Origin: an uncultured Alphaproteobacteria bacterium
GTDB taxonomy: Bacteria; Pseudomonadota; Alphaproteobacteria; HIMB59
Direction of reading: 5' to 3'
DNA length: 64,000 nt
NCBI GenBank assembly: GCA_902524245.1
Contig: CABZCN010000004.1
Span: 1 to 64,000 of the forward strand
Positions 34,725 to 64,000 of this stretch are shown in pieces. The number at the start of each line of letters is the position of its first letter. Position 1 is the first letter of the stretch. The position numbers and the translations under genes are program-made. The notes beneath the pieces were generated by a model that saw only the letters and a program-made list of their open reading frames with translations, did not search any database and was not told where the DNA came from.

Positions 34725-36140
34725 ATGGACAAAAAATCATTACAAAAAATGATCGATGAAAATGGTATTAAGTACATTGATTTTAGATTTACTGATCCTT
34801 TAGGAACATGGCAGCACTTTTCAAACCATATCAATACATTTGAAATGGACGTATTTGAGGAAGGTATTGGTTTCGACGGCTCTTCAATTAGATGTTTTCA
34901 GTCAATTGAAGCTAGTGACATGATATTAATTCCAGATATTGAGACTGCATTTGTAGATCCCTTTTTTACAGATCCTACTCTAGTTCTAATCTGTGACATT
35001 CAAGATCCAATTACTGGACAAAAGTACGATAAAGATCCAAGATACGTTGCAAAAAAAGCAGAAGAATTCGTTAAAACCTCAGGAGTTGGTGATAGCATTT
35101 TCTTTGGACCAGAAGCTGAATTTTTTCTTTTCAATAACGTTCAAATTAATACGCACCCTCATCACTCTTCTTTTTCAGTTGACTCCGGTGAAGCAGTTTG
35201 GAATACAGGCACAGCTGAAGGTCCAAATCTAGGTTATAAAGTTAGAAATAAAGGTGGCTATTTCCCATGCCCACCTCATGACACTATGCAAGATGTTAGA
35301 TCAGAAATGGTAAATCACATGGTTGCAATTGGTATGAGTGTTGAAGCGCAACACCACGAAGTTGCTACTGCTGGTCAATGTGAAATTGATTTAAAATTCG
35401 ATACATTGGTTAAGATGGCCGATGATCTTCAAAAATATAAATACGTTGTGAGAAACACAGCAAAAAGTAATGGTTTAAGTGCTACTTTTATGCCAAAACC
35501 TCTTTCAAACGACAATGGTTCAGGAATGCATTGTCACCAAAGTATTTGGTCAAACGGTAAACCAGTATTTTACGGTGAAGGCGGATATGCCAATCTTAGT
35601 GATGAAGCAAAATTTTATATTGGTGGTTTGCTTAAGCACGCACCATCTTTATTAGCCTTTACAAATCCAACTATTAACTCTTACAAGAGATTAGTTCCAG
35701 GTTATGAGGCTCCGGTAAAACTTGCATACTCTAATAGAAATAGAAGTGCTATATGTAGAATCCCTGCATACTCACCATCTCCGAAAGCAAAAAGAGTTGA
35801 GTTTAGATGTCCAGATGCAACTGCAAATGGTTATTTAGCATTTTCAGCTATGCTTATGGCAGGTTTAGATGGAATTAAGAATAGAATTGATCCTGGTGAA
35901 CCAATGGATAAAAATCTTTATGATTTACCTCCTGAAGAGCAATCTAAAGTAAAGGAAGTACCTGGTACTCTTGAGGAAGCGATTAATAATCTTGAGTCAA
36001 ATCATGATTATCTTTTAGAGGGTAATGTGTTTACCAAAGATTTAATCGAGTCATATATCGAATACAAAAGAGAAGAAGAAATCGAACCAAATAAACTGCT
36101 AGTTACACCTGCTGAGTTCGACATGTATTACGATTACTAA
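34725..36140 (+). CDS. glnA: Glutamine synthetase type I
   Basis: Makes glutamine from glutamate, ammonia and ATP; dodecamer. All GSI marks are present: GFDGSSIRCFQ with the ammonium-site Asp, GPEAEFFLF, AGQCEIDL, NGSGMHCHQSIW, NSYKRLVPGYEAP, NRSAICRIP, FRCPDATANGYLAF, and the adenylylation loop DKNLYDLPPEE with its Tyr. 471 residues. Strong AGGAGG before the ATG. Adenylylation by the convergent glnE and control by PII follow from the context. This is the only one of the four GS-family genes here with the intact canonical ammonia site visible. Confidence 0.97.
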   Translation: MDKKSLQKMIDENGIKYIDFRFTDPLGTWQHFSNHINTFEMDVFEEGIGFDGSSIRCFQSIEASDMILIPDIETAFVDPFFTDPTLVLICDIQDPITGQKYDKDPRYVAKKAEEFVKTSGVGDSIFFGPEAEFFLFNNVQINTHPHHSSFSVDSGEAVWNTGTAEGPNLGYKVRNKGGYFPCPPHDTMQDVRSEMVNHMVAIGMSVEAQHHEVATAGQCEIDLKFDTLVKMADDLQKYKYVVRNTAKSNGLSATFMPKPLSNDNGSGMHCHQSIWSNGKPVFYGEGGYANLSDEAKFYIGGLLKHAPSLLAFTNPTINSYKRLVPGYEAPVKLAYSNRNRSAICRIPAYSPSPKAKRVEFRCPDATANGYLAFSAMLMAGLDGIKNRIDPGEPMDKNLYDLPPEEQSKVKEVPGTLEEAINNLESNHDYLLEGNVFTKDLIESYIEYKREEEIEPNKLLVTPAEFDMYYDY

Positions 36141-51531: not shown

Positions 51532-52728
51532 ATGATTGATTATATACAGTTATTTAAAGATAGAAATCTATTCAATCAATGCACTAATGAAATAGAACTT
51601 AATAATTTACTCAATAAGAAAAAAATTATTTTTTATATTGGATTTGATGCTACTGCTGATGCATTACATGCCGGTAGTCTTGTTCAATTAAGAGCTATTA
51701 AGACTCTAATCAAACATGGTCATCAGGCAATAGTACTATTAGGTGGAGGCACAACAAAAATTGGTGACCCCTCTGGCAAAGATGCCTCAAGACAAATTTT
51801 GACGTACGAAACAATACAAGAAAATATTGAGAATTTTAAAAGAATATTCGAACATTATTTTAGAGATTTCAAAGAAAATATAAAATTTATAAATAATGAT
51901 CAATGGCTTGATAAATTAAACTACATAGAGTTATTGAGAGATTTGGGAAGTCAAGTCTCAATCAATCGTATGCTTACATTTGAGAGTGTTAAAGAGAGAC
52001 TTAAAAGAGAGCAATCATTATCATTTTTAGAATTTAATTACATGATACTTCAAAGTTATGATTTTCTTCACTTAAATAAACATGAAAATTGCGAGTTGCA
52101 AATTGGTGGCTCAGATCAATGGGGTAATATCGTTTTGGGTATGGAAATTATATCAAAAATAAACAAAAAGGATGCTTTTGGTCTGACTACACCTCTTTTA
52201 ACTACCTCTACGGGTAAGAAGATGGGCAAGACCGAGCAAGGCGCTGTCTGGATAGATCAAAATAAATACAGTTCTTACGATTTCTATCAGTATTGGAGAA
52301 ATGTGGACGATAATGATGTGGAAAAACTATTACTTATTTTTAGTGATTTAGATAAAGAAGAAATAAAAATATTAATTAAAGAAGATATCAATAATGCGAA
52401 AAAAAAATTAGCATACTTAGTGACAACAGATTGTCACTCAGAAAGCTCAGCACAAGAGGCTGAAGAAAAAGCAAGATCAATTTTTGAAAATAATTCTTAC
52501 GATAATATTGATGAAATTAACTTTAAAATAGACTCAAAACTCATAGATACACTAACATCCAATAGTACGGTCTCATCAAAATCTGAAGCAAAAAGGCTAA
52601 TTGAGGGTGGTGGTATAAAGATTGACGACGAGCAAATCAACGATATTAATCTTACAATTAATAAGTCTTATAACGGAAAAATACTCAAGATTGGTAAAAA
52701 AAAATATTTCAAAATTATTGTTAAGTAA
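51532..52728 (+). CDS. tyrS: Tyrosyl-tRNA synthetase
   Basis: Charges tRNA-Tyr. Seen: YIGFDATADALHAGSL (HIGH motif as HAGS), GGGTTKIGDPSGKD, EFNYMILQSYDFLHL, QIGGSDQWGN, the KMSKS motif as KKMGKT, and a C-terminal S4 RNA-binding domain (SKSEAKRLIEGGGIKI). 398 residues. No Shine-Dalgarno sequence is evident in the 33-base divergent gap. Confidence 0.96.
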   Translation: MIDYIQLFKDRNLFNQCTNEIELNNLLNKKKIIFYIGFDATADALHAGSLVQLRAIKTLIKHGHQAIVLLGGGTTKIGDPSGKDASRQILTYETIQENIENFKRIFEHYFRDFKENIKFINNDQWLDKLNYIELLRDLGSQVSINRMLTFESVKERLKREQSLSFLEFNYMILQSYDFLHLNKHENCELQIGGSDQWGNIVLGMEIISKINKKDAFGLTTPLLTTSTGKKMGKTEQGAVWIDQNKYSSYDFYQYWRNVDDNDVEKLLLIFSDLDKEEIKILIKEDINNAKKKLAYLVTTDCHSESSAQEAEEKARSIFENNSYDNIDEINFKIDSKLIDTLTSNSTVSSKSEAKRLIEGGGIKIDDEQINDINLTINKSYNGKILKIGKKKYFKIIVK

Positions 52729-53737
52729 CCAATATATCCTTTATAGCATCATTAACAAAATTTAAATCATCTTTGGACTTACCTGCTCCAGCATAGTGAC
52801 CGTAGCTTGAAGGAATGATACGTAATTCACCATTTTTAATATTTTTTAATTCAATTTCATTATCCTCTGGGGGGAAGTATAAATCATTTTTACCTGGCAT
52901 TAAAATACATCGCGCAGTAATAGAGTTAAGAGCTTTATCAAATTGATTATTAAATTTGTTATTGTTGCTAATGTCGTGCTCTTGCCAAGTTCTTATCATC
53001 GCTAATAAATCATTTGCATCCTTGCGATAATAAATTCTATTCCAAAGTTTATCCAAAACTTCTTTTGCATCTTTGTAACCATCATCGATATATTTTTTTT
53101 CCCTAAACCAGTCTTGCCCATGCGCCCATCCAGCCCATACTCTTGCCATTGTTGTTTTTCCATTTTGAGGTTGTTTTTCATAATTTCCAGAATTCCAGTT
53201 TGGATCTGAAGTCAAAGCAGCATAAACACCCTCTAAAAATACATATGTATGCTCTGTGGTTTTCGCATGACCACACATAGAAATCATATTTTCTACCATG
53301 TCTGGGAAATATGACGCCCACTGAAATGCTTGTTGTCCTCCCATTGACCAACCTATAACTAATTTAATTTTTTCTATGTTAAATATTTCTTTTAGAAGTG
53401 TGTATTGTGCTTGTACGTTATCATATATTGTAATTAAAGGAAAATTAGGTCCATTAAAGGGTTTTTCTGTATTACTGGGCGAGGAGGAAACACCATTACA
53501 AAACATATTTGGAATAATGATGAAATATTTACCTGGATCTATGGGAAAATTATTACCAATCAGATATCCTTGCTCAAGATGTGTACCAGCATACCTAGTA
53601 GGAAATAAAATTACATTTGATTTGTCAGAATTTAGTTTCCCAAATGCTAAATAATTTAATTGTAAATCTATTATGTCGCCTGATTTTAATTTGAAATTAT
53701 TTAGTTGGTATTTATGTAGTTCCTCTTTACTAATCAA
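52721..53737 (-). CDS. MetX-like alpha/beta hydrolase/acyltransferase
   Basis: 338 residues of the homoserine O-acetyltransferase fold family. Seen: PTRYAGTH (oxyanion side), the nucleophile elbow GWSMGGQQAF with Ser131, an Asp in GKNDLYFPPEDN, and the catalytic His in YGHYAGAG. True MetX enzymes have a GGSMGG elbow and a GHDAFL end; both differ here, so methionine synthesis is doubtful and a hydrolase is as likely. It directly follows a GS-like gene (TTG start right after that stop codon), which suggests a role in the same pathway. Substrate unknown. Confidence 0.7.
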   Translation of the reverse strand: MISKEELHKYQLNNFKLKSGDIIDLQLNYLAFGKLNSDKSNVILFPTRYAGTHLEQGYLIGNNFPIDPGKYFIIIPNMFCNGVSSSPSNTEKPFNGPNFPLITIYDNVQAQYTLLKEIFNIEKIKLVIGWSMGGQQAFQWASYFPDMVENMISMCGHAKTTEHTYVFLEGVYAALTSDPNWNSGNYEKQPQNGKTTMARVWAGWAHGQDWFREKKYIDDGYKDAKEVLDKLWNRIYYRKDANDLLAMIRTWQEHDISNNNKFNNQFDKALNSITARCILMPGKNDLYFPPEDNEIELKNIKNGELRIIPSSYGHYAGAGKSKDDLNFVNDAIKDILVT

Positions 53738-55135
53738 TTAAAATAACTTTAGATATTCTTTGATTTCCCAATCAGTTGTAGTTGTATGATATCTAGACCA
53801 CTCATCATATTTATATCCAATAAAATTGTTTATCATAGCCTCAGAAAAAACTTTTTTAGTTAATTTATCAGCAGCAAAAGCGTCTACTGCCTCTAATAAA
53901 TTTCTTGGCAGTGTAGTAACCTCTTTTTTTTCTTTCTCGGTCAAATCATAAAGACTTTTATTAGTTGGTTTTGGGGGTTTCATTTTTTTGTCGATACCCT
54001 CTGTAACAGCTGCGGCTAATAAAGAAAAAGTTAAATAAGGATTCTGAGTTAAATCAGACGCCCTATTTTCTATACAATATCTATTTTGTGGTAGTCTTAT
54101 CATAGCTGATCTATTATTACTGCCGTATGTCATGTGCGTAGGAGCCCATGTATGACGGCCACCATCAAGGCCCTCAACTGTAGGAACAAATCCGTTATAT
54201 GAGTTAACAGTTGGACATGCTAGAGCTGTAATCGCTGCTCCATGTTTTAAAATTCCAGCGACAGCATTGTAGGCTTTATCAGAGAAATTATTTCCATTCT
54301 TATATATGTTATTATTTTTCTTTTTAATTGATGCCACACTATGATTGATGTGAGCGCCAGCTCTCCAATCACTAATAGTTGTCTTTGGCATAAATGATAC
54401 AAAATATCCATATTTTTTTGCAACTTCCTTGAGTAATACTCTTAAAAATACAAATCTATCAGCCATCCCTAAAATATCTGTGTAACCGAAATCTAATTCA
54501 TACTGGCCATATGCACCCTCAGCAACGACGTCATGGAGATCCCATTTCAAATCATTATTTAAAATATCTATTATTTCTTTTAAAAAATGCATTCCATCTA
54601 TTGAGTACTCTGAGTCATACCCAAAAGCTTGTCTTCTCAAATTTATAGGATCTCTGTCAATTGCTTTAACTGGTTTGTCGCCCTCCCACTTCATTAAGAA
54701 AAATTCAGGTTCGATACCAACAAAAAATTTCAAGTCAGATTTAGCACTTTCCTTTATTTGTTTTTTTAACGTCATTCTTGGGCAAACATCGTAAGGTTTG
54801 TCATTCCAATATAAATCTGCAAAAACCCATGCACATGTTTTATCCCATGGACATATAACGAGACTATCCAAATCTGGCACAGGGATTTGATCATTATCTG
54901 CTGGAGTTAATTCTGGAACAAAGGAAACAGAATGAACAGCAAATTGAGGGCCTTTACCCATACAAAGATCCTCAAAATCAGATATAGGCATAGGCTTAGT
55001 TTTTGGACTACCCAGAAAATCAATCCAATTAGAATAAATGTATTTTACGCCTTTTTTTTCTAAATCCTTTTTTATTTTTCTAACTTTTTTTACATCAGGT
55101 AAGGCGTCTTTAAAATTTTCAAAATATTGACCCAA
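53738..55135 (-). CDS. Glutamine synthetase family protein, divergent (gamma-glutamyl amide synthetase of unknown substrate)
   Basis: 465 residues with the GS beta-grasp and catalytic domains. Conserved: GIEPEFFLM, GQYELDFGY, AGAHINHS, NNRSAMIRLP and ENRASDLTQNPYL. Changed: the DGSS ammonium loop of GlnA is replaced (FAVHSVSFVPELTPADND), and the usual NSYKR is NSYNGFVP. These changes suggest a different amine acceptor, or altered acid binding, rather than ammonia. The start is TTG with a strong GGAGGAG six bases upstream. Probably co-transcribed with the MetX-like gene. GmaS, PuuA-like and unknown functions are all possible. Confidence 0.8.
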   Translation of the reverse strand: MGQYFENFKDALPDVKKVRKIKKDLEKKGVKYIYSNWIDFLGSPKTKPMPISDFEDLCMGKGPQFAVHSVSFVPELTPADNDQIPVPDLDSLVICPWDKTCAWVFADLYWNDKPYDVCPRMTLKKQIKESAKSDLKFFVGIEPEFFLMKWEGDKPVKAIDRDPINLRRQAFGYDSEYSIDGMHFLKEIIDILNNDLKWDLHDVVAEGAYGQYELDFGYTDILGMADRFVFLRVLLKEVAKKYGYFVSFMPKTTISDWRAGAHINHSVASIKKKNNNIYKNGNNFSDKAYNAVAGILKHGAAITALACPTVNSYNGFVPTVEGLDGGRHTWAPTHMTYGSNNRSAMIRLPQNRYCIENRASDLTQNPYLTFSLLAAAVTEGIDKKMKPPKPTNKSLYDLTEKEKKEVTTLPRNLLEAVDAFAADKLTKKVFSEAMINNFIGYKYDEWSRYHTTTTDWEIKEYLKLF

Positions 55136-55211
55136 GTTAGTCTCCTCCTAAAATTTAAATCTTATCGAATTGAAATTATATGACCATAATATAAAATTAC
55201 TACTTCAAATT

Positions 55212-55457
55212 ATGAATATTGATTACTTTAAAAAATCATGGATTAAATTTTACAAAAGAGGCTTTATGATGGGATTTTTTGTTTTAACTTTTATACTTAC
55301 TGTTGATCAGTTTTTACAGACACCACTTTTTTTTAGTAAGATTACAGATATAAAAGTATTTATGTTCATCATATCCACTATTTTTTTTGCAGCAGTTTTT
55401 TGTGGTCTTTTGGCAGTGATTTTTTTATCACTAATTATGATCGCTACTAAAAAATAA
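55212..55457 (+). CDS. Small two-helix membrane protein, hypothetical
   Basis: 81 residues from the ATG at 55212 (a TTG at 55170 would add 14). A basic N-terminus (IKFYKRG) precedes two predicted transmembrane segments, about residues 20-38 and 50-75, and a lysine tail. No family recognised. It is divergent from the GS-like gene and ends one base before the convergent amidotransferase gene. Its hydrophobic layout and lack of a competing gene support it. Confidence 0.55.
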   Translation: MNIDYFKKSWIKFYKRGFMMGFFVLTFILTVDQFLQTPLFFSKITDIKVFMFIISTIFFAAVFCGLLAVIFLSLIMIATKK

Positions 55458-56198
55458 TTATAATTTAATATTTTCTAACCAATTCAGTAATTCAAGTTCT
55501 CTATTAAATTGATCTTCATTTTCAAAACTTTTTAATTTATTTAATAATGATTCAAATTCATTTTCACTCATAATCTTTAAATAATTTCTTTTCCAATAAC
55601 TCATTAATTTACCGATATAGTTGTATGGTAGTTCTGGATGATATTGAGTACAAAATATGTTTTGTTTTTTATGAGATATAGATTGAATAGAATGATTATT
55701 CTCAGAAATTATGTCAAAGTCCTTGGGGAGAGTTTCTAAACTATCGTAATGATGACCAGGGGCAGTAAATAAATTTTTTTTATTTTTATAAACAAAATGA
55801 TTTTTTATAATTTTTATTTTTTCAGAATATCCAAACTCTGGACTCATAGAACTTGATATTTTTCCTCCAAATGCTGTTACAGCCACTTGAAGACCCCAAC
55901 AACTTCCCCAAATTGGTCTTTCTAGATTTGCTATTCTATCAAATATCTTCAACTGATTTTTATTATGATCATTGTCATCATAAATATTACCTAGACCTCC
56001 GGTCCATAAAAAGGCATCGTAATCTTCAAAACTAAATTTATTTACATCCTCAATGTAAGGTTTATAAACCGAGATATTTGAGAGGGGATTTTGCTTTTTA
56101 ATAATTTCTTCAAAAAAACTATATTGATAAGAAGAATTTGATTTAACATGTTCATTATCATGGTTTTTATCCATGCCACTGATAATTAGTAAATTCAA
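55458..56198 (-). CDS. Class I glutamine amidotransferase-like protein
   Basis: 246 residues with a complete triad: nucleophile Cys100 in GSCWGLQ, and His187/Glu189 in QYHPELP; WTGGLGNIYDD marks the oxyanion side. Stand-alone members of this family hydrolyse gamma-glutamyl amides (PuuD-like, GMP-synthase-like) or act with a partner synthetase. In this GS-rich cluster, cleavage or transfer of a gamma-glutamyl group is a reasonable inference, but the substrate is unknown. No known synthetase is fused. Confidence 0.78.
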   Translation of the reverse strand: MNLLIISGMDKNHDNEHVKSNSSYQYSFFEEIIKKQNPLSNISVYKPYIEDVNKFSFEDYDAFLWTGGLGNIYDDNDHNKNQLKIFDRIANLERPIWGSCWGLQVAVTAFGGKISSSMSPEFGYSEKIKIIKNHFVYKNKKNLFTAPGHHYDSLETLPKDFDIISENNHSIQSISHKKQNIFCTQYHPELPYNYIGKLMSYWKRNYLKIMSENEFESLLNKLKSFENEDQFNRELELLNWLENIKL

Positions 56199-56207
56199 GT
56201 TTTCTGT

Positions 56208-56378
56208 TTATTTATGTCTAGAGAATTTCTTTTTTAAAATCAATTCGTTATCTTTTTTTGCTATTTTTCTTAAAATAAAAATCATAAATGCAATCCAAAT
56301 AACTGCTGCTATTAGTTTATTTTCAGCTATTGATTGAATGAGATTTTGAAAAAAGAGATTTGAAGTGTTGTAATCCAT
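56208..56378 (-). CDS. Possible small membrane protein (56 aa)
   Basis: ORF with an ATG at 56378: a polar N-terminus, one hydrophobic helix (IAAVIWIAFMIFIL) and a strongly basic tail ending KKKFSRHK. It lies after the GC-rich hairpin at 56385-56410 and has no Shine-Dalgarno sequence, so translation is uncertain. It fills the gap between the amidotransferase gene and the small ORF behind amtB. Confidence 0.4.
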   Translation of the reverse strand: MDYNTSNLFFQNLIQSIAENKLIAAVIWIAFMIFILRKIAKKDNELILKKKFSRHK

Positions 56379-56384
56379 TTATTA

Positions 56385-56410
56385 TAAGGCGGGGATAATT
56401 CCCCGCCTTA
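56385..56410 (-). terminator. GC-rich hairpin behind the amtB unit
   Basis: Perfect 10-bp stem (TAAGGCGGGG / CCCCGCCTTA) with loop ATAATT. It is the most GC-rich short element in this region and stands out sharply. It lies 10 bases after the stop of the 57-residue ORF behind amtB. No proper T-run follows on either strand, so it may be a terminator, an mRNA 3'-end stabiliser, or an attenuator before the 56-residue ORF. Confidence 0.55.
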
Positions 56411-56419
56411 AATTATACA

Positions 56420-56593
56420 TTATTTTGTTTTTTTTGCAGTATCAGACTCGTGTCTTGCTGTTGCCATAGTGACTAGCACGCATAGAGCAATAACAAAAAG
56501 GGTCCAAAATATCAGTGCACCTTCACTGTTGGCATATGTGAAATAAGCGTCCACACCTTCCCAACTATTTTCAGGTCCTGGAAATGTATTCAT
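56420..56593 (-). CDS. Small membrane protein encoded behind amtB (57 aa)
   Basis: 57 residues: an acidic/aromatic N-terminus (FPGPENSWEGVDAYFTYANSEG), one transmembrane helix (ALIFWTLFVIALCVLVTMAT) and a charged tail. A strong GGAAGGAG precedes the ATG, and it starts 20 bases after the amtB stop, so it is almost certainly translated. Family not recognised. By position it may be a partner of AmtB; that is inference only. Confidence 0.7.
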   Translation of the reverse strand: MNTFPGPENSWEGVDAYFTYANSEGALIFWTLFVIALCVLVTMATARHESDTAKKTK

Positions 56594-56613
56594 ATTTTCT
56601 CCTTCCTTATATG

Positions 56614-57891
56614 TTACTGATATGCCTTGAGATTTAACTCAGCGCTATCAATACCTGCTTTTTGAACTGCATCTGGTACACGTAACCAATTCATCATTTT
56701 CATAATAAATGACAAACCATAACCAGGTACAAATCCTACTAAGAACATGACTATACATCCAACTAACTGTCCACCAAAACTTGTTGGAGGAATATCACCA
56801 GATGCTGGATAGCCTGATGCAAATAATCCCATTGCAATCACACCCCATATACCGGCAACTCCGTGAACAGAGATAGCTCCTACTGGATCATCGATCTTGA
56901 AAACACTATGTAACCAATTATTCGCAGGAATAATTATCACACCGCCAACAAAACCAAGAACAAAGGCTAATCCTGGATACCAAACATCAAGACCCGACGC
57001 ACAGGAGAATATACCTGCAAGTCCACCTGACATCATCCAGAATGGGTTACCTTTACTCATCCAAAATGCGCCAATCATTCCACCGCCAAGACCCATTAGG
57101 GTATTGAATGCGAAAGAAGATAGTGTTGCTGGAGCACCGTAAATGTTTATCCAACCACCAAACTCTGCACCTGCCCAGATTAAACAACCACCGAGGAATC
57201 CGAAGAAACCAACAATAATCATTAACAGGCCTATAAATGAGAAACGAAGGTCATGACCCTCAATCTCATTCGCAGAACCGTCAGCATTGTATTTACCAAC
57301 TCTAGGACCTAAGTTTAAGACAACTCCGAAAGCAAACCAACCTGCTACCATGTGAACAACACCAGCTGCTCCAACATCATGATATCCAAATTGTGTTACT
57401 AACCATCCATCAGGATGCCAGCCCCATGAAGCGGCTAAGATCCAAGCTACTGATCCTAAAACAACAGCTAAGAAAGTAAATGAGCTAATTCTTATTCTCT
57501 CAAGAACAGATCCTGAAAAAATAGATGCTGTGGTACAAGCAAATAATGTAAATGCTGCCCAGAAAACACCTGTGGCTTGGTCACTTAACATTGGTCCCAT
57601 TGATACGTTCCAAGGGGTTCCATAACCCTCTAGATCAATAGGAGTAAATCCCATTGGGAATGCTAAATAAATATACCAACCAAATAACCAGAAGGTTGGT
57701 ATCATAAACGCGAACGCTAAAAGGTTTTTTGTAGCTGAAGAGACCGCGTTTTTAAAACGAGACGATCCTACTTCATACATCAAGAAACCTACGTGAATTG
57801 CAATCATTAACGCAGTACACCACCAATAGTAAGCTTCCATACTGACGTTCGCTTGCATCATCACGTACGATTCAAGTTCTTCAAGTGTCAT
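56614..57891 (-). CDS. amtB: Ammonium/methylammonium transporter
   Basis: Channel-like transporter with 11 predicted helices in 425 residues. The twin pore histidines are His180 (GAAGVVHMVAG) and His343 (GAISVHGVAGIWG), and the SGSVLERIRISSF and WAGAEFGGWINIYG stretches match the family. No cleaved signal peptide is obvious. A good GGAGG precedes the ATG. There is no glnK partner; PII is encoded 22 kb away. Neighbouring GmaS-like and N-methylglutamate-synthase-like genes suggest it may bring in methylamine as well as ammonium. Confidence 0.93.
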   Translation of the reverse strand: MTLEELESYVMMQANVSMEAYYWWCTALMIAIHVGFLMYEVGSSRFKNAVSSATKNLLAFAFMIPTFWLFGWYIYLAFPMGFTPIDLEGYGTPWNVSMGPMLSDQATGVFWAAFTLFACTTASIFSGSVLERIRISSFTFLAVVLGSVAWILAASWGWHPDGWLVTQFGYHDVGAAGVVHMVAGWFAFGVVLNLGPRVGKYNADGSANEIEGHDLRFSFIGLLMIIVGFFGFLGGCLIWAGAEFGGWINIYGAPATLSSFAFNTLMGLGGGMIGAFWMSKGNPFWMMSGGLAGIFSCASGLDVWYPGLAFVLGFVGGVIIIPANNWLHSVFKIDDPVGAISVHGVAGIWGVIAMGLFASGYPASGDIPPTSFGGQLVGCIVMFLVGFVPGYGLSFIMKMMNWLRVPDAVQKAGIDSAELNLKAYQ

Positions 57892-57917
57892 TATATGACC
57901 TCCTTATAAATTATTAC

Positions 57918-57941
57918 TTTTTATTTTTATAAAAATAAAAA
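57918..57941. repeat. 24-bp A/T palindrome upstream of amtB
   Basis: Perfect 24-bp palindrome of A and T only (TTTTTATTTTTA followed by its reverse complement), 26 bases upstream of the amtB ATG in the 233-base divergent gap. The same gap contains a minus-strand TATAAT (58022-58027) that could be the amtB -10. A regulatory site or 5'-leader hairpin is possible; in AT-rich DNA chance is also possible. Confidence 0.4.
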
Positions 57942-58086
57942 AGGACAGAGAAAAAATCTTTTTACAACTTTATAGAATCTTCTTTCCTGCACTTTTATGT
58001 ATTTTACTTTTAATTGACTTAATTATAAAATCAAAAGAAGTTAATTAATGTTAAAAAAAGATTGAGTTCAATTGTTTTTTTAATGG

Positions 58087-58103
58087 TATGCACTATTTGC
58101 ATA
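58087..58103. promoter_or_regulatory. Inverted repeat before the gmaS-like gene
   Basis: TATGCA and TGCATA around a 5-base CTATT spacer, 21 bases before the ATG at 58125 and just ahead of its GAGGAG ribosome-binding site. The site is the right size for a dimeric repressor or activator. Position is the only other evidence; the regulator is unknown. Confidence 0.35.
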
Positions 58104-58124
58104 TTCAAATAGAGGAGATATATA

Positions 58125-59432
58125 ATGGCAACTAACCTTCACCAATTTGCTAAAAAAAATGGTGTCAAATATTTTTTTGTAAGCTTTGTAGATTTATTTG
58201 GGGTGCTTAGATCAAAGCTTGTACCTGCAACAGCTATAGATGAAATTCAATCTGAAGGAGCTGGATTTGCAGGTTTTGCAACATGGCTTGATATGTCTCC
58301 AGCTGACTCTGATATGTTTGGTATGCCAGATGGTGATAGTGTTATCCAGCTTCCTTGGAATAAAGAAATAGCTTGGGTTGCCTCTGATTTGTATATGGAT
58401 GGTAAACCAGTAGAAGCTTCACCCAGAATAGCCTTAAAAAGACAAATAGAAAAAGCAGCTAAAAAAAATCTTTATATGAAGTCAGGTGTTGAATGTGAAT
58501 TTTTTTTGGTCAATGAAGATGGGACATCTTTATCAGATCAAAGGGATACGCAAGCAAAACCGTGCTATGACTCCTCTGCTTTAATGAGAAGATATGATGT
58601 TATCACTGAGATATGTGACTCAATGATTGCACTAGGATGGAAACCTTACCAAAACGATCATGAAGATGCGAATGGGCAATTTGAAATGAACTGGGATTTC
58701 TCGGATTGTTTAGTAACAGCAGATAGACATGCTTTTTTTAAATTCATGGTGAAATCTATTGCAGAAAAACATTCACTAAGGGCAACTTTCATGCCCAAAC
58801 CTTTTACAAATTTAACAGGTAATGGATGTCATTGTCATATTTCTATTTGGGATAAATCTGGCAAAAAAAATATGTTTTTAGATAAAAAAGATGAATTAGG
58901 TTTATCCAAAACTGGTTACAATTTCTTAGGTGGAATAATGGAAAGTGCGGACAAAATGGCTGCTCTTTTTAACCCAACTGTAAACTCCTATAAAAGAATT
59001 AACGGTAGTGTAACAACATCAGGTGCAACTTGGTCGCCAAGCTCGATTACTTGGGCAGGTAACAACAGGACACACATGGTAAGAGTTCCTGGTGCAGGAA
59101 GATTTGAATTAAGATTAATGGATGGAGCTACAAATCCTTATTTACTTCAAGCAGGTATTTTACTTTTAGGTTTGGACGGTTTAAATAATAAAAGAGACCC
59201 TGGAAAACGATTAGATATTAATATGTACACAGAGGGTCACAAGTCTGGGAAAGTAAAAAAATTACCATTAAATCTTCTTGATGCAATACGTGATTTTGAT
59301 AAATCAAAAATCATTAGAGCAGGTTTTGGTGATGATTTAGTCAATAGCTATGTAAAATTAAAAAATCAAGATTGGGGTACTTTTAATAAACACCTTTCTA
59401 GTTGGGAAAGAGAAACAACTCTAGATTGTTAA
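58125..59432 (+). CDS. gmaS: Type III GS-like gamma-glutamylmethylamide synthetase (GmaS/GlnT family)
   Basis: Likely joins glutamate and methylamine (or ammonia) with ATP. 435 residues, matching the alphaproteobacterial GlnT/GmaS family nearly throughout: GAGFAGFATWLDMSPADSDM, GVECEFFLVNEDG, PYQNDHEDANGQFEMNW, TGNGCHCHISIWD, NSYKRI, NRTHMVRVPGAGRFELRLMDGATNPYL. The DGSS ammonium loop of GlnA is replaced by FAGFATW, as in other members. No adenylylation Tyr loop of the GlnA kind. Good GAGGAG before the ATG. GmaS rather than a plain GlnT is favoured by the MgsABC-like genes beside it, but methylamine use is not proven. Confidence 0.75.
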   Translation: MATNLHQFAKKNGVKYFFVSFVDLFGVLRSKLVPATAIDEIQSEGAGFAGFATWLDMSPADSDMFGMPDGDSVIQLPWNKEIAWVASDLYMDGKPVEASPRIALKRQIEKAAKKNLYMKSGVECEFFLVNEDGTSLSDQRDTQAKPCYDSSALMRRYDVITEICDSMIALGWKPYQNDHEDANGQFEMNWDFSDCLVTADRHAFFKFMVKSIAEKHSLRATFMPKPFTNLTGNGCHCHISIWDKSGKKNMFLDKKDELGLSKTGYNFLGGIMESADKMAALFNPTVNSYKRINGSVTTSGATWSPSSITWAGNNRTHMVRVPGAGRFELRLMDGATNPYLLQAGILLLGLDGLNNKRDPGKRLDINMYTEGHKSGKVKKLPLNLLDAIRDFDKSKIIRAGFGDDLVNSYVKLKNQDWGTFNKHLSSWERETTLDC

Positions 59433-59439
59433 ACTATTA

Positions 59440-59994
59440 ATGACACCTGAAGTTTTACAAGAAAAGTTTCTTGATTGGCAATGTCAATCTAGAATTCAGG
59501 CATTTAGAACACAAAATGGTAGACCAAACTCATCTATGGCACCAATATTGCTTGATAAGAAAGGAAATGAACTTCTAAGAATAATTGTTGTAATTTCAGA
59601 AAATGATCCTGTAAACACGACAAAACTGTTTGAACATACATTTAAACGAACTTACGATCCCGCTGATCGATTTGATAAAATGAATAAATTTTTATCTTCT
59701 GAATATTTTATGGATAAAGATAAATTTTCAGACTCTTTGTTTGCTACTTTTCCAAAAAATTCAAGTATCTCAAAAAAAGTAGTTAAAGACGGCTCATGTA
59801 TTTTAGATTTTATTCACCTTTCTACAAATTATAGGTTGTCATGTTCTCCTTTTATTCTCGATAAAAATGAGGAACATTGGGAAAATATTTTTTGGCACAA
59901 TAAAAATTTTAATCCTGGTTTGGGGAATGACATAGATGTTATAAAGTTTATTCCAAATTGGAAAAAATCTAAATTAATAAGAATTAAAGATTAA
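59440..59994 (+). CDS. Conserved-looking protein of unknown function, coupled to the gmaS-like gene
   Basis: 184 residues, starting 7 bases after the gmaS-like stop, so the two are likely made together. I do not recognise the family. Visible: a WQCQSRIQAFRTQNGRPNSSMAP stretch near the N-terminus, a compact mixed alpha/beta pattern, NNLFEHTF-like KLFEHTFKRTYDPADRF, and a Trp-rich end (HWENIFWHNKNF). No signal peptide or membrane helix. A stable bidirectional terminator follows. A role in the amine pathway is inference from position. Confidence 0.75.
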   Translation: MTPEVLQEKFLDWQCQSRIQAFRTQNGRPNSSMAPILLDKKGNELLRIIVVISENDPVNTTKLFEHTFKRTYDPADRFDKMNKFLSSEYFMDKDKFSDSLFATFPKNSSISKKVVKDGSCILDFIHLSTNYRLSCSPFILDKNEEHWENIFWHNKNFNPGLGNDIDVIKFIPNWKKSKLIRIKD

Positions 59995-60007
59995 AATATT
60001 TGAAAGT

Positions 60008-60031
60008 ATAAGGGAGCAGAGGCTCCCTTAT
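60008..60031. terminator. Bidirectional terminator between convergent units
   Basis: Perfect 10-bp stem (ATAAGGGAGC / GCTCCCTTAT) with an AGAG loop, followed by TTATAAAATTTT on the plus strand and preceded by AATATTTG-type A/T on the other. It lies between the stop of the 184-residue gene and the stop of the convergent 158-residue gene, which is where one shared terminator would be expected. Confidence 0.75.
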
Positions 60032-60041
60032 TTATAAAATT

Positions 60042-60518
60042 TTACTCAACTAACTTAAAGTTCTCACCCTTAGCGTATGTTCTTTTTAACTGCACCAAGG
60101 GATGGTTAGGTGACATTTGAAACTTAATTAAAAGTTCTCTTGCTAACATATCTCTATCTTGTTGGTTTTTTGGAAGTTTAATCTTCTTTGGCAAAGTGAT
60201 CCAAGCGTTTGCATTTCTGTCAAACACAGCAGGGGTATCACCTTCAAAACCCATATGGATGTCCTCTAACCAATTTAAATCATCCCAACCCATAATTTCG
60301 ATGTATTGTTTAAGAAATGGTGTTAAGTGCTTGTAATCAGGAATTAAGTTAACATCATAACGATAGCCAATATGCTGGCCAATCATTTTTTCTCTTGATG
60401 TTTTAATTTCCTTATCTTTTAATTTAGCTCCGCCGACAACTTGATAACCTTTTGACTTAGTAGGTTTTTTTGATTTTGCAGAAGTTGATTTCTTTTTTGT
60501 AACTTTCTTTTTAACCAT
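60042..60518 (-). CDS. Lysine-rich protein of unknown function in the glx operon
   Basis: 158 residues, last gene of the class II amidotransferase / GXGXG / FMN operon, 9 bases after the FMN subunit. The first ~45 residues are a Lys/Ser/Thr-rich tail (KKKVTKKKSTSAKSKK), probably disordered. The rest looks folded: GQHIGYRYDVNLIPDYKHLTPFLKQYIEIMGWDDLNWLEDIHMGFE, then AWITLPKKI and RELLIKFQMSPNHPLVQLKRTYAKGE. Family not recognised. Strict operon position suggests an accessory or assembly role for the split enzyme. Confidence 0.78.
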   Translation of the reverse strand: MVKKKVTKKKSTSAKSKKPTKSKGYQVVGGAKLKDKEIKTSREKMIGQHIGYRYDVNLIPDYKHLTPFLKQYIEIMGWDDLNWLEDIHMGFEGDTPAVFDRNANAWITLPKKIKLPKNQQDRDMLARELLIKFQMSPNHPLVQLKRTYAKGENFKLVE

Positions 60519-60527
60519 AATACTCTC

Positions 60528-61862
60528 CTAAATTGAGTGGTAGTTATCTACACCTACTGTTAAATCTGTACCAGCTAATGGAACTTTAGCCATTGCTGAT
60601 GACTCCATTGTCAATGCAGCTAGATCTTCTGGCTCAAGTGAATGAATGTTCGTCTTACCACATGCTCTTGCTAACATTTGGCACTCAAGAGTCATAGTGC
60701 TAAGCAAATTATAAACTCTTTCTGCTGCCTCTGTTGGGTCTAATCTACTTCTAAGAACAGGATCTTGTGTGGCCACACCAACTGGACATCTACCAGTATG
60801 ACAGTGATAGCAGTAACCTGCCTCTACTCCCATTTCTTTTTCATAATCAGCCTCTGGAATATCTTTGTTACAGTTCAGTGCTACTAATCCAGCTGTACCG
60901 ATCGCAATAGCATCTGCCCCAAGAGCTAAGGCTTTAGCCATATCAGCTCCATCTCTAATACCTCCGGCAAATACTAATGATATTTCACCAGTTTTTCCCA
61001 CATCGTCCAAAGCTCTTCTTGCTTCTCTAATTGCACCAATACCAGGAATACCAGTATTAGCTGCTGCAATGTGTGGACCAGCTGCTGTTGAGCCTTCCAT
61101 AGAGTCTAAAAATATAGAGTCAGGGTCACATTTTGCTGCCATTCTGACATCGTCATAAACTCTTGATGCTCCTAACTTCAATTGAATTGGCACTTGATTG
61201 TCAGTTAATTCTCTTAATTCTTGAACCTTAAGAGCTAAATCGTCCGGTCCCATCCAGTCTGGGTGTCTAGCAGGAGATCTTTGATCAATACCAGCAGGTA
61301 ACGATCTCATCTCAGCTACTTGGTCAGTAACTTTCTGGCCCATTAAGTGACCACCCATTCCAACTTTTTGACCTTGGCCAATGAATACCTCAATGGCGTC
61401 AGCTAATTGAGCATGGTGTGGGTTGAAACCATACCTGGATTGAATACATTGATAATACCATTTGTGAGAGTACCTTCTCTCATCAGGTATCATACCCCCT
61501 TCTCCAGAACAAGTTGCACTTCCTGCCATTGATGAACCTCTAGCTAAAGCAGTTTTTGCTTCATAAGAAAGAGCACCAAAACTCATACTTGTTATGTAAA
61601 CAGGAATATCAAGTTTGATAGGATTTTTTGCTCTAGGACCTATTATTGTTTCTGTTAGACACTTCTCTCTGTAACCTTCAATAACAAATCTTGTTAATGT
61701 GCCTGGTAAAAAAACTAAATCATCCCAGTGAGGAATTTTTTTCATTAACGCCATACCACGCATACGATAACGACCAAGTTGTGATTTGATATGAATGTCG
61801 TCCATTACCTCGGGGGTAAAAATTGAGTTTTGTCCTAATAATTGTGTATTACGTTTTGCCAT
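60528..61862 (-). CDS. glxD: FMN-binding glutamate synthase-like subunit (MgsC/GlxD type)
   Basis: Corresponds to the central FMN barrel of glutamate synthase; in the N-methylglutamate pathway this is MgsC. Seen: PVYITSMSFGALSYEAKTALARGSSMAG, CSGEGGM, VGMGGHLMG, QLKLGASRVYDDV, FAGGIRDGADMAKALALGADAIAIGT, and the Fe-S cysteines in CYHCHTGRCPVGVATQDP. 444 residues. Together with the next two genes it makes a GltB split in three. Plain GOGAT-like activity is the alternative to N-methylglutamate synthase. Confidence 0.85.
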   Translation of the reverse strand: MAKRNTQLLGQNSIFTPEVMDDIHIKSQLGRYRMRGMALMKKIPHWDDLVFLPGTLTRFVIEGYREKCLTETIIGPRAKNPIKLDIPVYITSMSFGALSYEAKTALARGSSMAGSATCSGEGGMIPDERRYSHKWYYQCIQSRYGFNPHHAQLADAIEVFIGQGQKVGMGGHLMGQKVTDQVAEMRSLPAGIDQRSPARHPDWMGPDDLALKVQELRELTDNQVPIQLKLGASRVYDDVRMAAKCDPDSIFLDSMEGSTAAGPHIAAANTGIPGIGAIREARRALDDVGKTGEISLVFAGGIRDGADMAKALALGADAIAIGTAGLVALNCNKDIPEADYEKEMGVEAGYCYHCHTGRCPVGVATQDPVLRSRLDPTEAAERVYNLLSTMTLECQMLARACGKTNIHSLEPEDLAALTMESSAMAKVPLAGTDLTVGVDNYHSI

Positions 61863-62698
61863 TAGCCTAATATTCCTTTCTTTTCTGCTGGCTCTAGATT
61901 GTCATAATTCCAGAGCATTCTTCCTGCAACGTATTTCTTAAATTTTGAAGCTGGGACCTTGCAATCAATCTCAGCATTTTTAATTTTTTGTTCTAGCCAT
62001 CTAACCTCGTGTTCATTCATTTCACCAGGTACGCAGTCTGTTCCAAGCGAGTGAGGCTCTCCTCCTACAAAAATTATTCCATCATACATTGAGTCACCCA
62101 TGTTTGCGTTTACATCACCACAAACGATAATTCTTCCTCTTTGCATCATAAATCCAGTGTAAGCTCCAGCGTTTCCGCCAATAAGAATAGTGCCACCTTT
62201 CATATCAATTCCAGTTCTTGCACCTGCATCGCCTTTAACTATAAGGTCACCACCTCTAAGAGCAGCTCCAAAACAAGATCCTGCATTGTTTTCAACAACA
62301 ACTTTTCCTGACATCATATTTTCAGCACATGACCAACCAACTCTTCCGTTAACTCTCACTGTTGGTCCATCGATACAACCGATACCAAAATAACCTAAGC
62401 TACCCTCAAAGATTAAGTTTAACTTATTTAGAATTCCCACACCAAGTGAGTGTTTTGCACCAGGGTTTTTAATAACTATAGACCCATATCCCTTTCGAAT
62501 TGCATCTCTAATTTTTTGATTCAATGCATGAGCATCAATGCCTTCACAATCAATGGAGGTTCTTTTATTAAAATCAACTTCGTGATTACCGTAGTAGGTA
62601 TAATTTTCTTCTTCTGTTACTTCAAAATATAATTTTTGCGATCTACCTGATAAATTTTCATCATCAAAAGCAGTAGTTCTTTTTGTTATGCCTGCCAT
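61862..62698 (-). CDS. glxC: GXGXG-domain glutamate synthase-like subunit (MgsB/GlxC type)
   Basis: Right-handed beta-helix domain corresponding to the C-terminal part of GltB. Seen: the repeated Gly motifs GYGSIVIKNPG, GIGCIDGPTVRVNGRVGWSCAENMMSG, GSCFGAALRGGDLIVKGDAGARTGIDMKGGTILIGGNAGAYTGFMMQRG. 278 residues with an N-terminal extension of about 45. In glutamate synthase this domain shapes the ammonia tunnel structurally and has no catalytic residues. Overlaps glxB by 13 bases and shares one base with glxD. Confidence 0.85.
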   Translation of the reverse strand: MAGITKRTTAFDDENLSGRSQKLYFEVTEEENYTYYGNHEVDFNKRTSIDCEGIDAHALNQKIRDAIRKGYGSIVIKNPGAKHSLGVGILNKLNLIFEGSLGYFGIGCIDGPTVRVNGRVGWSCAENMMSGKVVVENNAGSCFGAALRGGDLIVKGDAGARTGIDMKGGTILIGGNAGAYTGFMMQRGRIIVCGDVNANMGDSMYDGIIFVGGEPHSLGTDCVPGEMNEHEVRWLEQKIKNAEIDCKVPASKFKKYVAGRMLWNYDNLEPAEKKGILG

Positions 62699-63627
62699 AC
62701 TTTTACCTCCGCTTCATAAGGGTCATATGTTTTAATTTCGTGAGGAAATATATTCCTAATTGCAACTTCCTCTGATGCACATGCTACGATGTCTTTACTT
62801 TCATAGATTACCATTGGCTTAGCGGCCATATGGTCTTTTGCCATTCCCAACTGATCCTTTGTTGCTACAACATATGTAAAAACTCCATCGAGCTCATCCA
62901 AGCTATCATGCATAGCTTTTTCTAGTTCAATGCCGTTAGCCATCTTATCAGCTATATAGACAGCAATTATTTCTGAGTCACAATTTGAATTAAACCTGTA
63001 ACCTTTTCTTTCAAGTACTCTTCGATTGCCCCAATAATTAGTCAATTGACCATTATGAACAACTGACACATCCTCAAAAGGGAAAGCCCAATAAGGGTGT
63101 GCAGATTTAATATCTACATCAGACTCGGTAGCCATCCTTGTATGGCCAATACCGTGGGTACCCATAAATTTATCAAGGCCATATTGATTGGATACAGTAT
63201 TTGCATCGCCTAAGTCTTTAATGAGTTCAAGACCCTTACCAATTGATAAAATTTCAGTTTTTTCGACTGTTTCTATCTCAGTAGCCAAATCTGTGAGGTC
63301 ACCTTTAAAATCAAATATATATCTGAAAGCGTATGGGGTGCTGGAGCTTTCTTTTGTTACTTTAGCACCATGTTTTTTTAAAATAGAGTCGACAGCATTT
63401 TTTCTATTTTTTAAATCAGCAGGTGAGTCGACAGTTGCATTTACCTTTTCAGCCTCGTTTTCAGATATTTTAAATCTCATTACAAAGCCTTTTTTTAAAG
63501 GTGTTCCGTACATAGCATATCCTGTTGAGTCAGGTCCCCTATGTTTAAGACCTTGTAACATAAGGCCCATTTGTTCACCGACGTTGACTGTCTTCTTTTT
63601 ATTTATAACTCCAGCTATTCCACACAT
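62686..63627 (-). CDS. glxB: Class II glutamine amidotransferase subunit (MgsA/GlxB type)
   Basis: Ntn-type amidotransferase domain corresponding to the N-terminal part of GltB. The nucleophile Cys2 is in MCGIAGV; HRGPDSTGYAMYG, IGHTRMATESDVDIKSAHPYWAFPFEDVSVVHNGQLTNYW, and SNCDSEIIAVYIADKM follow. 313 residues. Cys2 needs removal of Met1 only. It would supply ammonia, or an amine released from a gamma-glutamyl amide, to the FMN subunit. It follows a GS gene on the same strand. Confidence 0.87.
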   Translation of the reverse strand: MCGIAGVINKKKTVNVGEQMGLMLQGLKHRGPDSTGYAMYGTPLKKGFVMRFKISENEAEKVNATVDSPADLKNRKNAVDSILKKHGAKVTKESSSTPYAFRYIFDFKGDLTDLATEIETVEKTEILSIGKGLELIKDLGDANTVSNQYGLDKFMGTHGIGHTRMATESDVDIKSAHPYWAFPFEDVSVVHNGQLTNYWGNRRVLERKGYRFNSNCDSEIIAVYIADKMANGIELEKAMHDSLDELDGVFTYVVATKDQLGMAKDHMAAKPMVIYESKDIVACASEEVAIRNIFPHEIKTYDPYEAEVKVWQA

Positions 63628-63646
63628 ACTTTTCTCCTATCTTATC

Positions 63647-64000
63647 TTATGGTAAGCAATCTAGGTATTTATCGAGATCCCATTGAGTCGGAGTTGCTAA
63701 AAATTCTTCCCACTCATCTCTTTTATACTCCATAAACACTTTCATCATGTCACCTGGTAGAGCATCTTGTATTACCTTGTCGGTTTCTAATCGATCTAAT
63801 GCCTCACCAAGAGTCATTGGTAATTTTTCAACTTGCTTACCAGCTTTCATTTGTTCATACATATTTTGTTGTTCAGGTTTGCCTGGATCCATTTTCTTTG
63901 AAATACCATGGTCGAATGCTTTCAACAGACCGCTTCCCATTAAGTATGGGTTGTGGGCTGAGTCAACTGATCGATATTCAAATCTACCAGGGGCAGATAC
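63647..64000 (-). CDS. Glutamine synthetase family protein (partial, N-terminal part outside window)
   Basis: The last 117 residues of a GS-family protein; the frame is open to the window end. Visible: GRFEYRSVDSAHNPYLMGSGLLKAFDHGI, matching the family block before the active-site end, then the C-terminal helices (LGEALDRLETDKVIQDALPG, FMEYKRDEWEEFL). Fourth GS-family gene in 30 kb and immediately upstream of glxB, so it may be the true synthetase partner of the split enzyme (GmaS or GlnT); the deciding N-terminal loops are not in the window. Confidence 0.82.
   Translation of the reverse strand, partial: VSAPGRFEYRSVDSAHNPYLMGSGLLKAFDHGISKKMDPGKPEQQNMYEQMKAGKQVEKLPMTLGEALDRLETDKVIQDALPGDMMKVFMEYKRDEWEEFLATPTQWDLDKYLDCLP

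Follow-up and report, generated by a model that had tools for sequence, protein, structure and literature searches.

Tmm and Tdm convert trimethylamine (TMA) and trimethylamine N-oxide (TMAO) to dimethylamine (DMA), which Ruegeria then processes with DmmDABC, and SAR11 bacteria are described in the same article as oxidizing TMA, TMAO and methylamine without a DMA enzyme, a gap regarded there as a bottleneck for the methylated-amine pathway in the sea and tied to DMA in marine aerosols (PMC5520151). TMAO as the only nitrogen source supports weak growth of Candidatus Pelagibacter ubique HTCC1062, which has no dmmDABC, and an isoenzyme for DMA has been suggested (PMC8918994). The window analyzed here, i.e., the whole stretch of 64 kb that opens contig C4 (85,237 bases) of an alphaproteobacterial genome of 1.37 Mb in 21 contigs, ends within a gene unit that we call module B. 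This unit consists of a gene for a 158-amino acid (aa) protein (u158), a split glutamate synthase triplet (FMN1, GXG1 and GAT1) and a gene for a 489-aa glutamine synthetase (GS)-like ligase (GS489), usually accompanied by a gene for a single-subunit flavin adenine dinucleotide (FAD) oxidase (FADox). From its sequence and distribution, the GS489 unit is a well-supported candidate for the missing DMA step of SAR11-type bacteria.

Three described systems come closest. Like the N-methylglutamate pathway (GmaS, MgsABC and MgdABCD), module B combines a ligase, a split glutamate synthase and a flavin oxidase, and its ligase has the same pocket residues; it differs from that pathway in that the ligase stands outside the GmaS clade and below the TIGR03105 cut-off, and in having its own triplet copies (31-50% identical to a second triplet on the same contig), an extra 158-aa protein and a one-subunit FAD oxidase. 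DmmDABC has the same metabolic position as is proposed for module B, the consumption of Tdm-made DMA, but no family in common with it, as no HODM (PF11927), DmmA-like (PF22290/PF22289) or Fer2 domain occurs in the module B and FADox proteins scanned by Pfam. Finally, SAR11_1305 (glnT), SAR11_1304 (monomeric sarcosine oxidase), SAR11_1303 (GcvT-like) and SAR11_1302 (opuAC) of HTCC1062 fit the order of module B by position, and the accessible portions of the two papers concerned assign no function to this unit (PMC3160333, PMC5069961). In the accessible portion of their article, Sun et al. designate SAR11_1316 as a GMAS homologue and SAR11_1313-1315 as the Mgs candidate, and leave the sarcosine-oxidase-type paralogues of HTCC1062 unresolved (PMC3160333). 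SAR11_1302 and SAR11_1305 are listed among 15 genes at least fourfold different in sulfur-limited, stationary-phase HTCC1062 (PMC5069961, accessible part).

Module B as a conserved unit

On contig C4, the unit occupies the minus strand with u158 (60042-60518), a conserved gene without Pfam match for a putative accessory protein, FMN1 (60528-61862; flavin mononucleotide (FMN) glutamate-synthase subunit, PF01645, 286.8 bits), GXG1 (61862-62698; GXGXG subunit, PF01493), GAT1 (62686-63627; MgsA/GltB-like class II amidotransferase subunit with the N-terminus MCGI, Pfam GATase_6/7) and GS489 (C4:63647-65116; PF00120), of which the window holds the 3' part (63647-64000). FADox (C4:65138-66541) comes next on the same strand as u158. 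From u158 to FADox the gaps do not exceed 21 bp and two overlaps occur, a spacing that looks as in an operon.

The unit was followed through 135 loci (L040-L139 and L167-L201), from which seven with lone paralogues only and three genome repeats (L070, L074 and L077) were dropped. Counts use a GS489 identity threshold of at least 65%, sequence families exclude hits with stops, without end codon or of odd length, and the labels Pelagibacteraceae and SAR11 follow the titles of database records. Among at least 591 relatives, the 80 best were kept; the close ones that share the locus are single-cell genomes of marine origin, entered in the database as uncultured Alphaproteobacteria or Pelagibacteraceae, and kinship and genome size suggest that the window's genus is of HIMB59/AEGEAN-169 type. 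In 109/109 distinct loci with more than 4.5 kb on that side, the genes u158-FMN1-GXG1-GAT1-GS489 stand in unbroken order, namely 22/22 in the window's genus, 11/11 in its sister family, 53/53 in Pelagibacteraceae and 23/23 in other Alphaproteobacteria, so the arrangement is not a matter of chance. FMN1 is at least 77% identical among the relatives kept. FADox adjoins GS489 in 24/24, 10/10, 58/58 and 19/28 loci of the same four groups, respectively. Where enough sequence is available, the 5 kb on the FADox side include a GcvT domain of Tdm type in 10/10 loci of the sister family and 51/51 of Pelagibacteraceae; the Tdm-type open reading frames (ORFs) are 779-800 aa long in eight of nine further loci checked (1302 aa in L199), and an NCBIfam scan of Tdm in five relatives placed four above the cut-off and SAR11 locus L167 just below it (1082 versus 1100 bits).

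The split glutamate synthase had been taken as the partner of GmaS in the original prediction, a pairing that fails. The window triplet does have separate amidotransferase, GXGXG and FMN genes in MgsABC order, but it adjoins GS489 in every informative locus, and it is the other triplet, outside the window, that is found near gmaS (L055, L056, L091, L134 and L173) or near mgd (on the window's contig and in its genus). The two triplets are 50% (FMN1/FMN2), 37% (GXG1/GXG2) and 31% (GAT1/GAT2) identical. As to whether the genes stay together in relatives, gmaS lies within the fetched stretch around module B in 22/25 loci of the window's genus, 11/11 of the sister family, 50/61 of Pelagibacteraceae and only 2/28 of other Alphaproteobacteria, some of the loci being cut short, though the genomes often contain both (29/38 in the class sample).

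Two components of the unit are less easily placed in a family. None of 30 members of the u158 family matched a Pfam family, and the structure model of u158 is of low confidence (mean pLDDT 62). FADox matches PF01266 (DAO) with 121.5 bits and belongs to the sarcosine/dimethylglycine oxidase-like DAO family; its best PDB profile match, 1y56_B, is named sarcosine oxidase (E 4e-24) and covers the N-terminal half only.

The GS-family ligases of the window fall into three kinds, none of which clusters with GlnA in the GS-family tree. The product of 58125-59432 (plus strand, 435 aa) scores 645.7 bits against TIGR03105 (cut-off 469.6), has as its best PDB match 7cql (613 bits), which is the GmaS of Rhodovulum (RhGmaS; PMC7948447, accessible part), and forms one clade with RhGmaS (100/100 support); by profile, structure match and tree, this gene is gmaS, with the predicted role of a methylamine ligase (gamma-glutamylmethylamide synthetase). 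GS489, which scores 300.9 bits against the same profile, groups with lone paralogues in a clade (100/100) separate from GmaS, GlnA and PuuA, within which module-type GS489 alone is weakly supported; the PuuA-like rows of this tree carry a long-branch warning. The RhGmaS residues named in PMC7948447 were mapped onto the alignment, all ten letters matching the expected residue. The methylamine-pocket residues K30', Y147, Q175, D177, E179, E186 and N188 are kept in 79/79 GmaS sequences and likewise in 97/97 distinct GS489 sequences, and the residues typical of ammonium-using GS are missing from both, Asp50' being replaced by Val and the Glu flap by Trp in 97/97 GS489, and both being absent from 79/79 GmaS. 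Given these alkylamine pocket residues, GS489 looks able to work like GmaS. Consistent differences from GmaS near the pocket (A48V, G49Y, F50G, N182P and D148H) leave room, as far as residues can indicate, for another amine.

A sister group of GS489 without the module (L191-L194 and L196-L198; 54-65% identity) keeps the pocket residues in 6/6 sequences. A plasmid search for named relatives returned two paralogues only (51-53%).

Distribution of module B and dmm among genomes with Tmm

GS489 was matched in 64/162 genomes of the window's order and in 40/385 genomes of the class, 38 after removal of the lone paralogues of G424 and G530 (63 and 65% matches at L193 and L191, which lack module genes); G231, despite one stop codon in its match, and G503, whose match is a fragment at the end of a contig, were retained. 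In the class sample, gmaS above cut-off accompanies module B in 29/38 genomes, compared with 40/347 others (p 4e-17), and soxA (TIGR01372, E <= 1e-60), searched in the module-B genomes only, is present in 38/38, 34 of them above cut-off. Genes of sox/mgd type stand beside module B in L169, L176, L181, L186 and L200. Nine of the 38 genomes lack gmaS above cut-off, including G246 (100% complete) and G353 (98%). The absence of gmaS in nine and presence of soxA in all 38 would be expected if DMA were converted directly to N-methylglutamate for use by Mgd, with no free methylamine in between. In G156, a member of the window's genus that is 94% complete, GS489, Tmm and gmaS are all missing together. 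Module B is found in 30/37 genomes of genus g183 in the order of G366.

Because Tmm and Tdm make DMA, genomes with Tmm should have either dmm or module B if module B uses DMA. Tmm above cut-off occurs in 21/385 class genomes (the matches of G503 and G237 fall below it and are not counted), and 17 of these have module-type GS489. The other four (G411, G319, G441 and G468) have strong matches to PF11927, three of them on the tmm contig within about 10 kb of tmm. A second sample, 91 genomes of the order of G441, added 16 genomes with Tmm: GS489 in eight, PF11927 in 11, both in three and neither in none.

PF11927 presence alone was rejected as a test for dmm since it is too loose: the family also covers a second, non-dmm group. 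In a tree of HODM proteins, which leaves out the window genome's weak match (L203) and those of G111 and G150, 14 proteins form a clade that a branch of 4.6 (support 100/100) sets apart from the remaining nine. DmmA-like and DmmB-like neighbors accompany 14/14 loci of this dmm clade (checked by Pfam for two of them) and 0/10 other HODM loci. G559, G576 and G600, the three genomes with both GS489 and PF11927, have HODM of the non-dmm type only, and each of the 12 Tmm genomes without GS489 encodes an HODM subunit that falls into the dmm clade.

Taken together, the 37 Tmm genomes comprise 25 with module B in which no dmm was found, 12 with dmm and without module B, none with both and none with neither. 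PF11927 finds no match in 19 of the 25, three have the non-dmm type only, and three, of the window's genus, have weak matches of 51-59 bits, among which only that of the window's genome was examined. The exclusion has a Fisher p of 5e-10 on genomes and 5e-7 on families (14 versus 10), values that treat genomes or families as independent. On the Tmm tree (38 rows for 37 genomes, G559 having two Tmm copies), the module B/dmm label changes seven times (6-7 across bootstraps), at least three of the changes being forced by well-supported branches. The swap between module B and dmm has thus happened repeatedly, though kin share their label. In the class as a whole, a strong HODM match was found in 0/38 module-B genomes and in 46/347 others (p 0.014).

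The only PF11927 match of the window's genome is divergent and partial (57 bits; 58.8 bits as L203, 1093-1806, G000:C7:14000-17000) and lies on another contig, with no DmmA-like or DmmB-like neighbor within 3 kb. Weak HODM matches also occur in G111, G150 and G156, the last of which is without tmm and module B.

A candidate route for dimethylamine and its rivals

Module B belongs to a larger set of genes, C4:52721-84772, which forms a TMA/TMAO-to-glutamate cluster with a TMAO-type transporter, tdm, tmm, mgdABCD, gmaS and two mgsABC-like triplets. The original prediction had noted that the window contains no N-methylglutamate dehydrogenase, which is correct, and had pointed beyond position 64000 for mgdABCD, tmd or tmm; mgdABCD, tmm and tdm are indeed all on C4, the mgdABCD-type (soxBDAG) operon starting 6.3 kb past the window's end. 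The second triplet (FMN2/GXG2/GAT2; C4:67443-70326) is followed by soxG/soxA/soxD/soxB of mgd type (C4:70332-75452; soxD, an ORF of 90 aa, is so named from its place and length), tmm (C4:75626-76960; NF058570, 736 bits, cut-off 675), a 389-aa GcvT-like gene (C4:77138-78307), tdm (C4:78324-80675; NF053776, 1161 bits, cut-off 1100), about 13 kb from GS489, and an ABC transporter of betaine/TMAO type (C4:80679-84772). DMA monooxygenase genes (dmmDABC) were not found within C4:52721-84772. Apart from GS465, a third GS-like gene described below, and its neighbors, only module B, FADox and the 389-aa GcvT-like gene have no assigned role among the catabolic genes of the cluster. The earlier suggestion that several GS-like paralogs mean several amines offers the best explanation of the extra GS-like ligase.

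We consider it likely, well short of certain, that module B provides an alternative DMA route via gamma-glutamyl-dimethylamide and N,N-dimethylglutamate, and that it replaces dmm in the cluster. First, GS489 would use ATP to join DMA to glutamate, yielding gamma-glutamyl-dimethylamide. RhGmaS accepts DMA with a Km of 16 mM, versus 27 µM for methylamine (PMC7948447, Table 1, accessible part), and this weak use indicates that the chemistry of DMA ligation is possible. Second, GAT1/GXG1/FMN1, with u158 as a putative accessory subunit, would transfer the dimethylamino group onto 2-oxoglutarate, with N,N-dimethylglutamate and glutamate as products, in parallel with the action of MgsABC on methylamine. 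Third, FADox would take off one methyl group, releasing N-methylglutamate and a one-carbon (C1) unit. Finally, MgdABCD, already encoded in the cluster, would remove the second methyl group to leave glutamate. Free methylamine would be handled in the usual way by GmaS and FMN2/GXG2/GAT2. Gene content, constant linkage, ligase residues and the exclusion with dmm were observed directly in the sampled genomes; from these we infer DMA as the substrate, the two intermediates, the order of the steps and the role of u158.

The broader proposal is that Alphaproteobacteria, including SAR11 and the window's lineage, degrade DMA without oxygenase chemistry, a dedicated ligase and a dedicated glutamate-synthase-like complex making gamma-glutamyl-dimethylamide and N,N-dimethylglutamate and two flavin enzymes then demethylating in turn on the nitrogen of glutamate, free methylamine thus never arising on the way, and that this system has been repeatedly swapped with DmmDABC; we hold the chances for and against it to be evenly balanced. 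No paper proposing a gamma-glutamyl-dimethylamide/N,N-dimethylglutamate route was found in the partial literature covered, most of it judged by title and opening of the abstract and most subscription journals and bioRxiv lying outside it. Module B is a concrete candidate for the missing SAR11 DMA enzyme and the probable means of a DMA step for which no enzyme had been found in these abundant ocean bacteria. If this is true, dmm-based estimates of marine DMA turnover are too low, and the annotations "glnT" and "glutamate synthase" in these genomes need changing.

Several observations weigh against a DMA route through module B. The module is not universal in SAR11-type bacteria, being present in 32/95 genomes of the order of G366, which is SAR11-type by kin. 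Of the module-B class genomes, 21 have no Tmm above cut-off (with fragments of it in G503 and G237), which makes free DMA or other amines possible substrates. Tdm lies within 5 kb in only 6/23 loci of other Alphaproteobacteria and in 0/23 of the window's genus. FADox (E <= 1e-80) is missing in 6/38 module-B genomes, including G523 (98% complete) and G237 (95%), which means that the third step cannot always rest on FADox; G427 has a 48% FADox match at its locus despite this threshold. When plain PF11927 presence is used, the second sample is weaker (p 0.026), with three genomes having both. Labels cluster on the Tmm tree, random reassignment giving a mean of 10.4 changes and seven or fewer in only 6 to 9 of 500 shuffles, a structure to be set beside the independence assumed in the Fisher tests. 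The class searches also score few first-look candidates per genome (four at most), so that genes may be missed.

Four other explanations were weighed. Module B could be a second methylamine pathway, its proteins being isoenzymes that differ from GmaS and MgsABC in affinity or regulation, as the identical pocket residues of GS489 and GmaS and a triplet of the same kind, with FMN subunits 50% identical, would suggest; however, with gmaS in 29 of the 38 module-B genomes this would mean redundancy even in genomes of 1.2-1.4 Mb, and a methylamine isoenzyme would not substitute for dmm, yet the two exclude each other across the 37 tmm genomes, which leaves this explanation improbable. It is also unlikely that the substrate of module B is some other amine from the environment (ethylamine, ethanolamine, or longer or cyclic amines) and that its exclusion with dmm reflects ecology. 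GS-like ligases acting on other amines are known, and the 21/38 module-B class genomes without Tmm above cut-off would fit such a substrate, but a Tdm-type gene stands within 5 kb in 61/61 SAR11 and sister-family loci, Tmm is within the fetched stretch in 7/28 class loci, and on the Tmm tree the label flips some seven times, no genome having both systems or neither.

A third explanation keeps DMA as the substrate and has FADox alone oxidize it to methylamine, which GS489 and the triplet would then take. FADox belongs to a sarcosine-oxidase-like DAO family and adjoins in 92/92 distinct loci of the window's order and Pelagibacteraceae that extend far enough. We nonetheless find this quite improbable, because G523 has Tmm and module B with no PF11927 match and no FADox at E <= 1e-80, because FADox adjoins in only 19/28 class loci whereas the GS489 core is constant, and because the solved relatives of FADox, by their names, act on amino acids and not on free amines. 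Family-level annotation alone would make ammonia-using glutamine synthetases of the GS genes and an ordinary glutamate synthase of the triplet; this reading can practically be dismissed given the loss of Asp50' and the Glu flap in 97 GS489 and 79 GmaS, the distance of both from GlnA in the tree and the presence of glnA with glnB elsewhere in the window.

GS465 and other genes of the cluster

Every gene that the original prediction listed in 52721-64000 was found in its place, including three GS-family genes besides glnA (53738-55135, 58125-59432 and 63647-64000, the last cut by the window's end); glnA and glnB themselves are at 35031-36128, apart from the methylamine block. The assimilation of methylated amines by this block, which it had also proposed, agrees with gmaS and the adjoining mgd, tmm and tdm, and does not extend to GS465, which is not shown to act on amines. 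Overall, that reading is partly supported: the block is real and the chemistry right, with the wrong parts paired.

GS465 (53738-55135, minus strand) is a 465-aa GS-like ligase of a separate clade that scores 358.7 bits against TIGR03105, below the cut-off. It shows Q175D, D177V, N188D and R288G in 23/23 sequences; as an amine ligase it is unsupported, having lost alkylamine-pocket residues and the glutamate-binding Arg. By its residues, GS465 appears to be neither GmaS nor clearly a glutamate ligase, and it probably stands outside the amine pathway; since Gly replaces the glutamate-binding Arg288, an acid other than glutamate may be what it ligates. Directly beside it on the same strand is a gene for a MetX-like alpha/beta hydrolase with a GWSMGG motif (52721-53737; NF005757, 424 bits), which pairs with GS465 in several relatives, namely in four of eight other class loci (L237, L238, L240 and L241 among L237-L244, a set in which two loci contain nothing closer to GS465 than distant relatives of 35-37% identity). 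No methylamine genes were seen in L237-L244. Judging from this pairing, GS465 and the MetX-like gene look to be a unit distinct from module B.

Further along the minus strand, a class I glutamine-amidotransferase-like protein (55458-56198; PF00117, with GSCWG and HPE motifs) adjoins GS465 in the window's genus, and an Amt-family ammonium/amine transporter (56614-57891; PF00909) has Amt-type counterparts nearby in relatives and SAR11 loci. Between gmaS and u158 lies, on the plus strand, the gene of a 184-aa protein, u184 (59440-59994), often tail to tail with u158. Neither the product of this gene nor that of 60042-60518 was matched by Pfam or NCBIfam models at E <= 0.001, and the u184 family gave scattered weak Pfam hits only; a confident structure model predicts that u184 is an FMN-type split barrel with a pyridoxamine-5'-phosphate-oxidase-like fold.

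Past FADox, an IclR regulator gene occupies C4:66602-67372. One regulator family is found beside module B in 18/28 class loci (L168, L170-L172 and 14 more), the regulator of L168 being GntR/FCD by Pfam, and the window's genus has its IclR-type regulator at that place. In genus g43 (L172, L175, L178 and L179), two common genes lie between tmm and module B, and the L172 copies encode, by Pfam, an amino-acid-type permease and a phytanoyl-CoA-dioxygenase-like protein.

Seven GS-family genes are a lot for a 1.37-Mb genome. Three further GS-like ligases of the window's genome are located on contigs C3, C1 and C8 (L002, L003 and L004), in the context of ABC-permease and FAD-oxidase-like genes, of aldehyde and iron alcohol dehydrogenase-like genes, and of neither, respectively; two of the three cluster with E. 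coli PuuA, on long branches.

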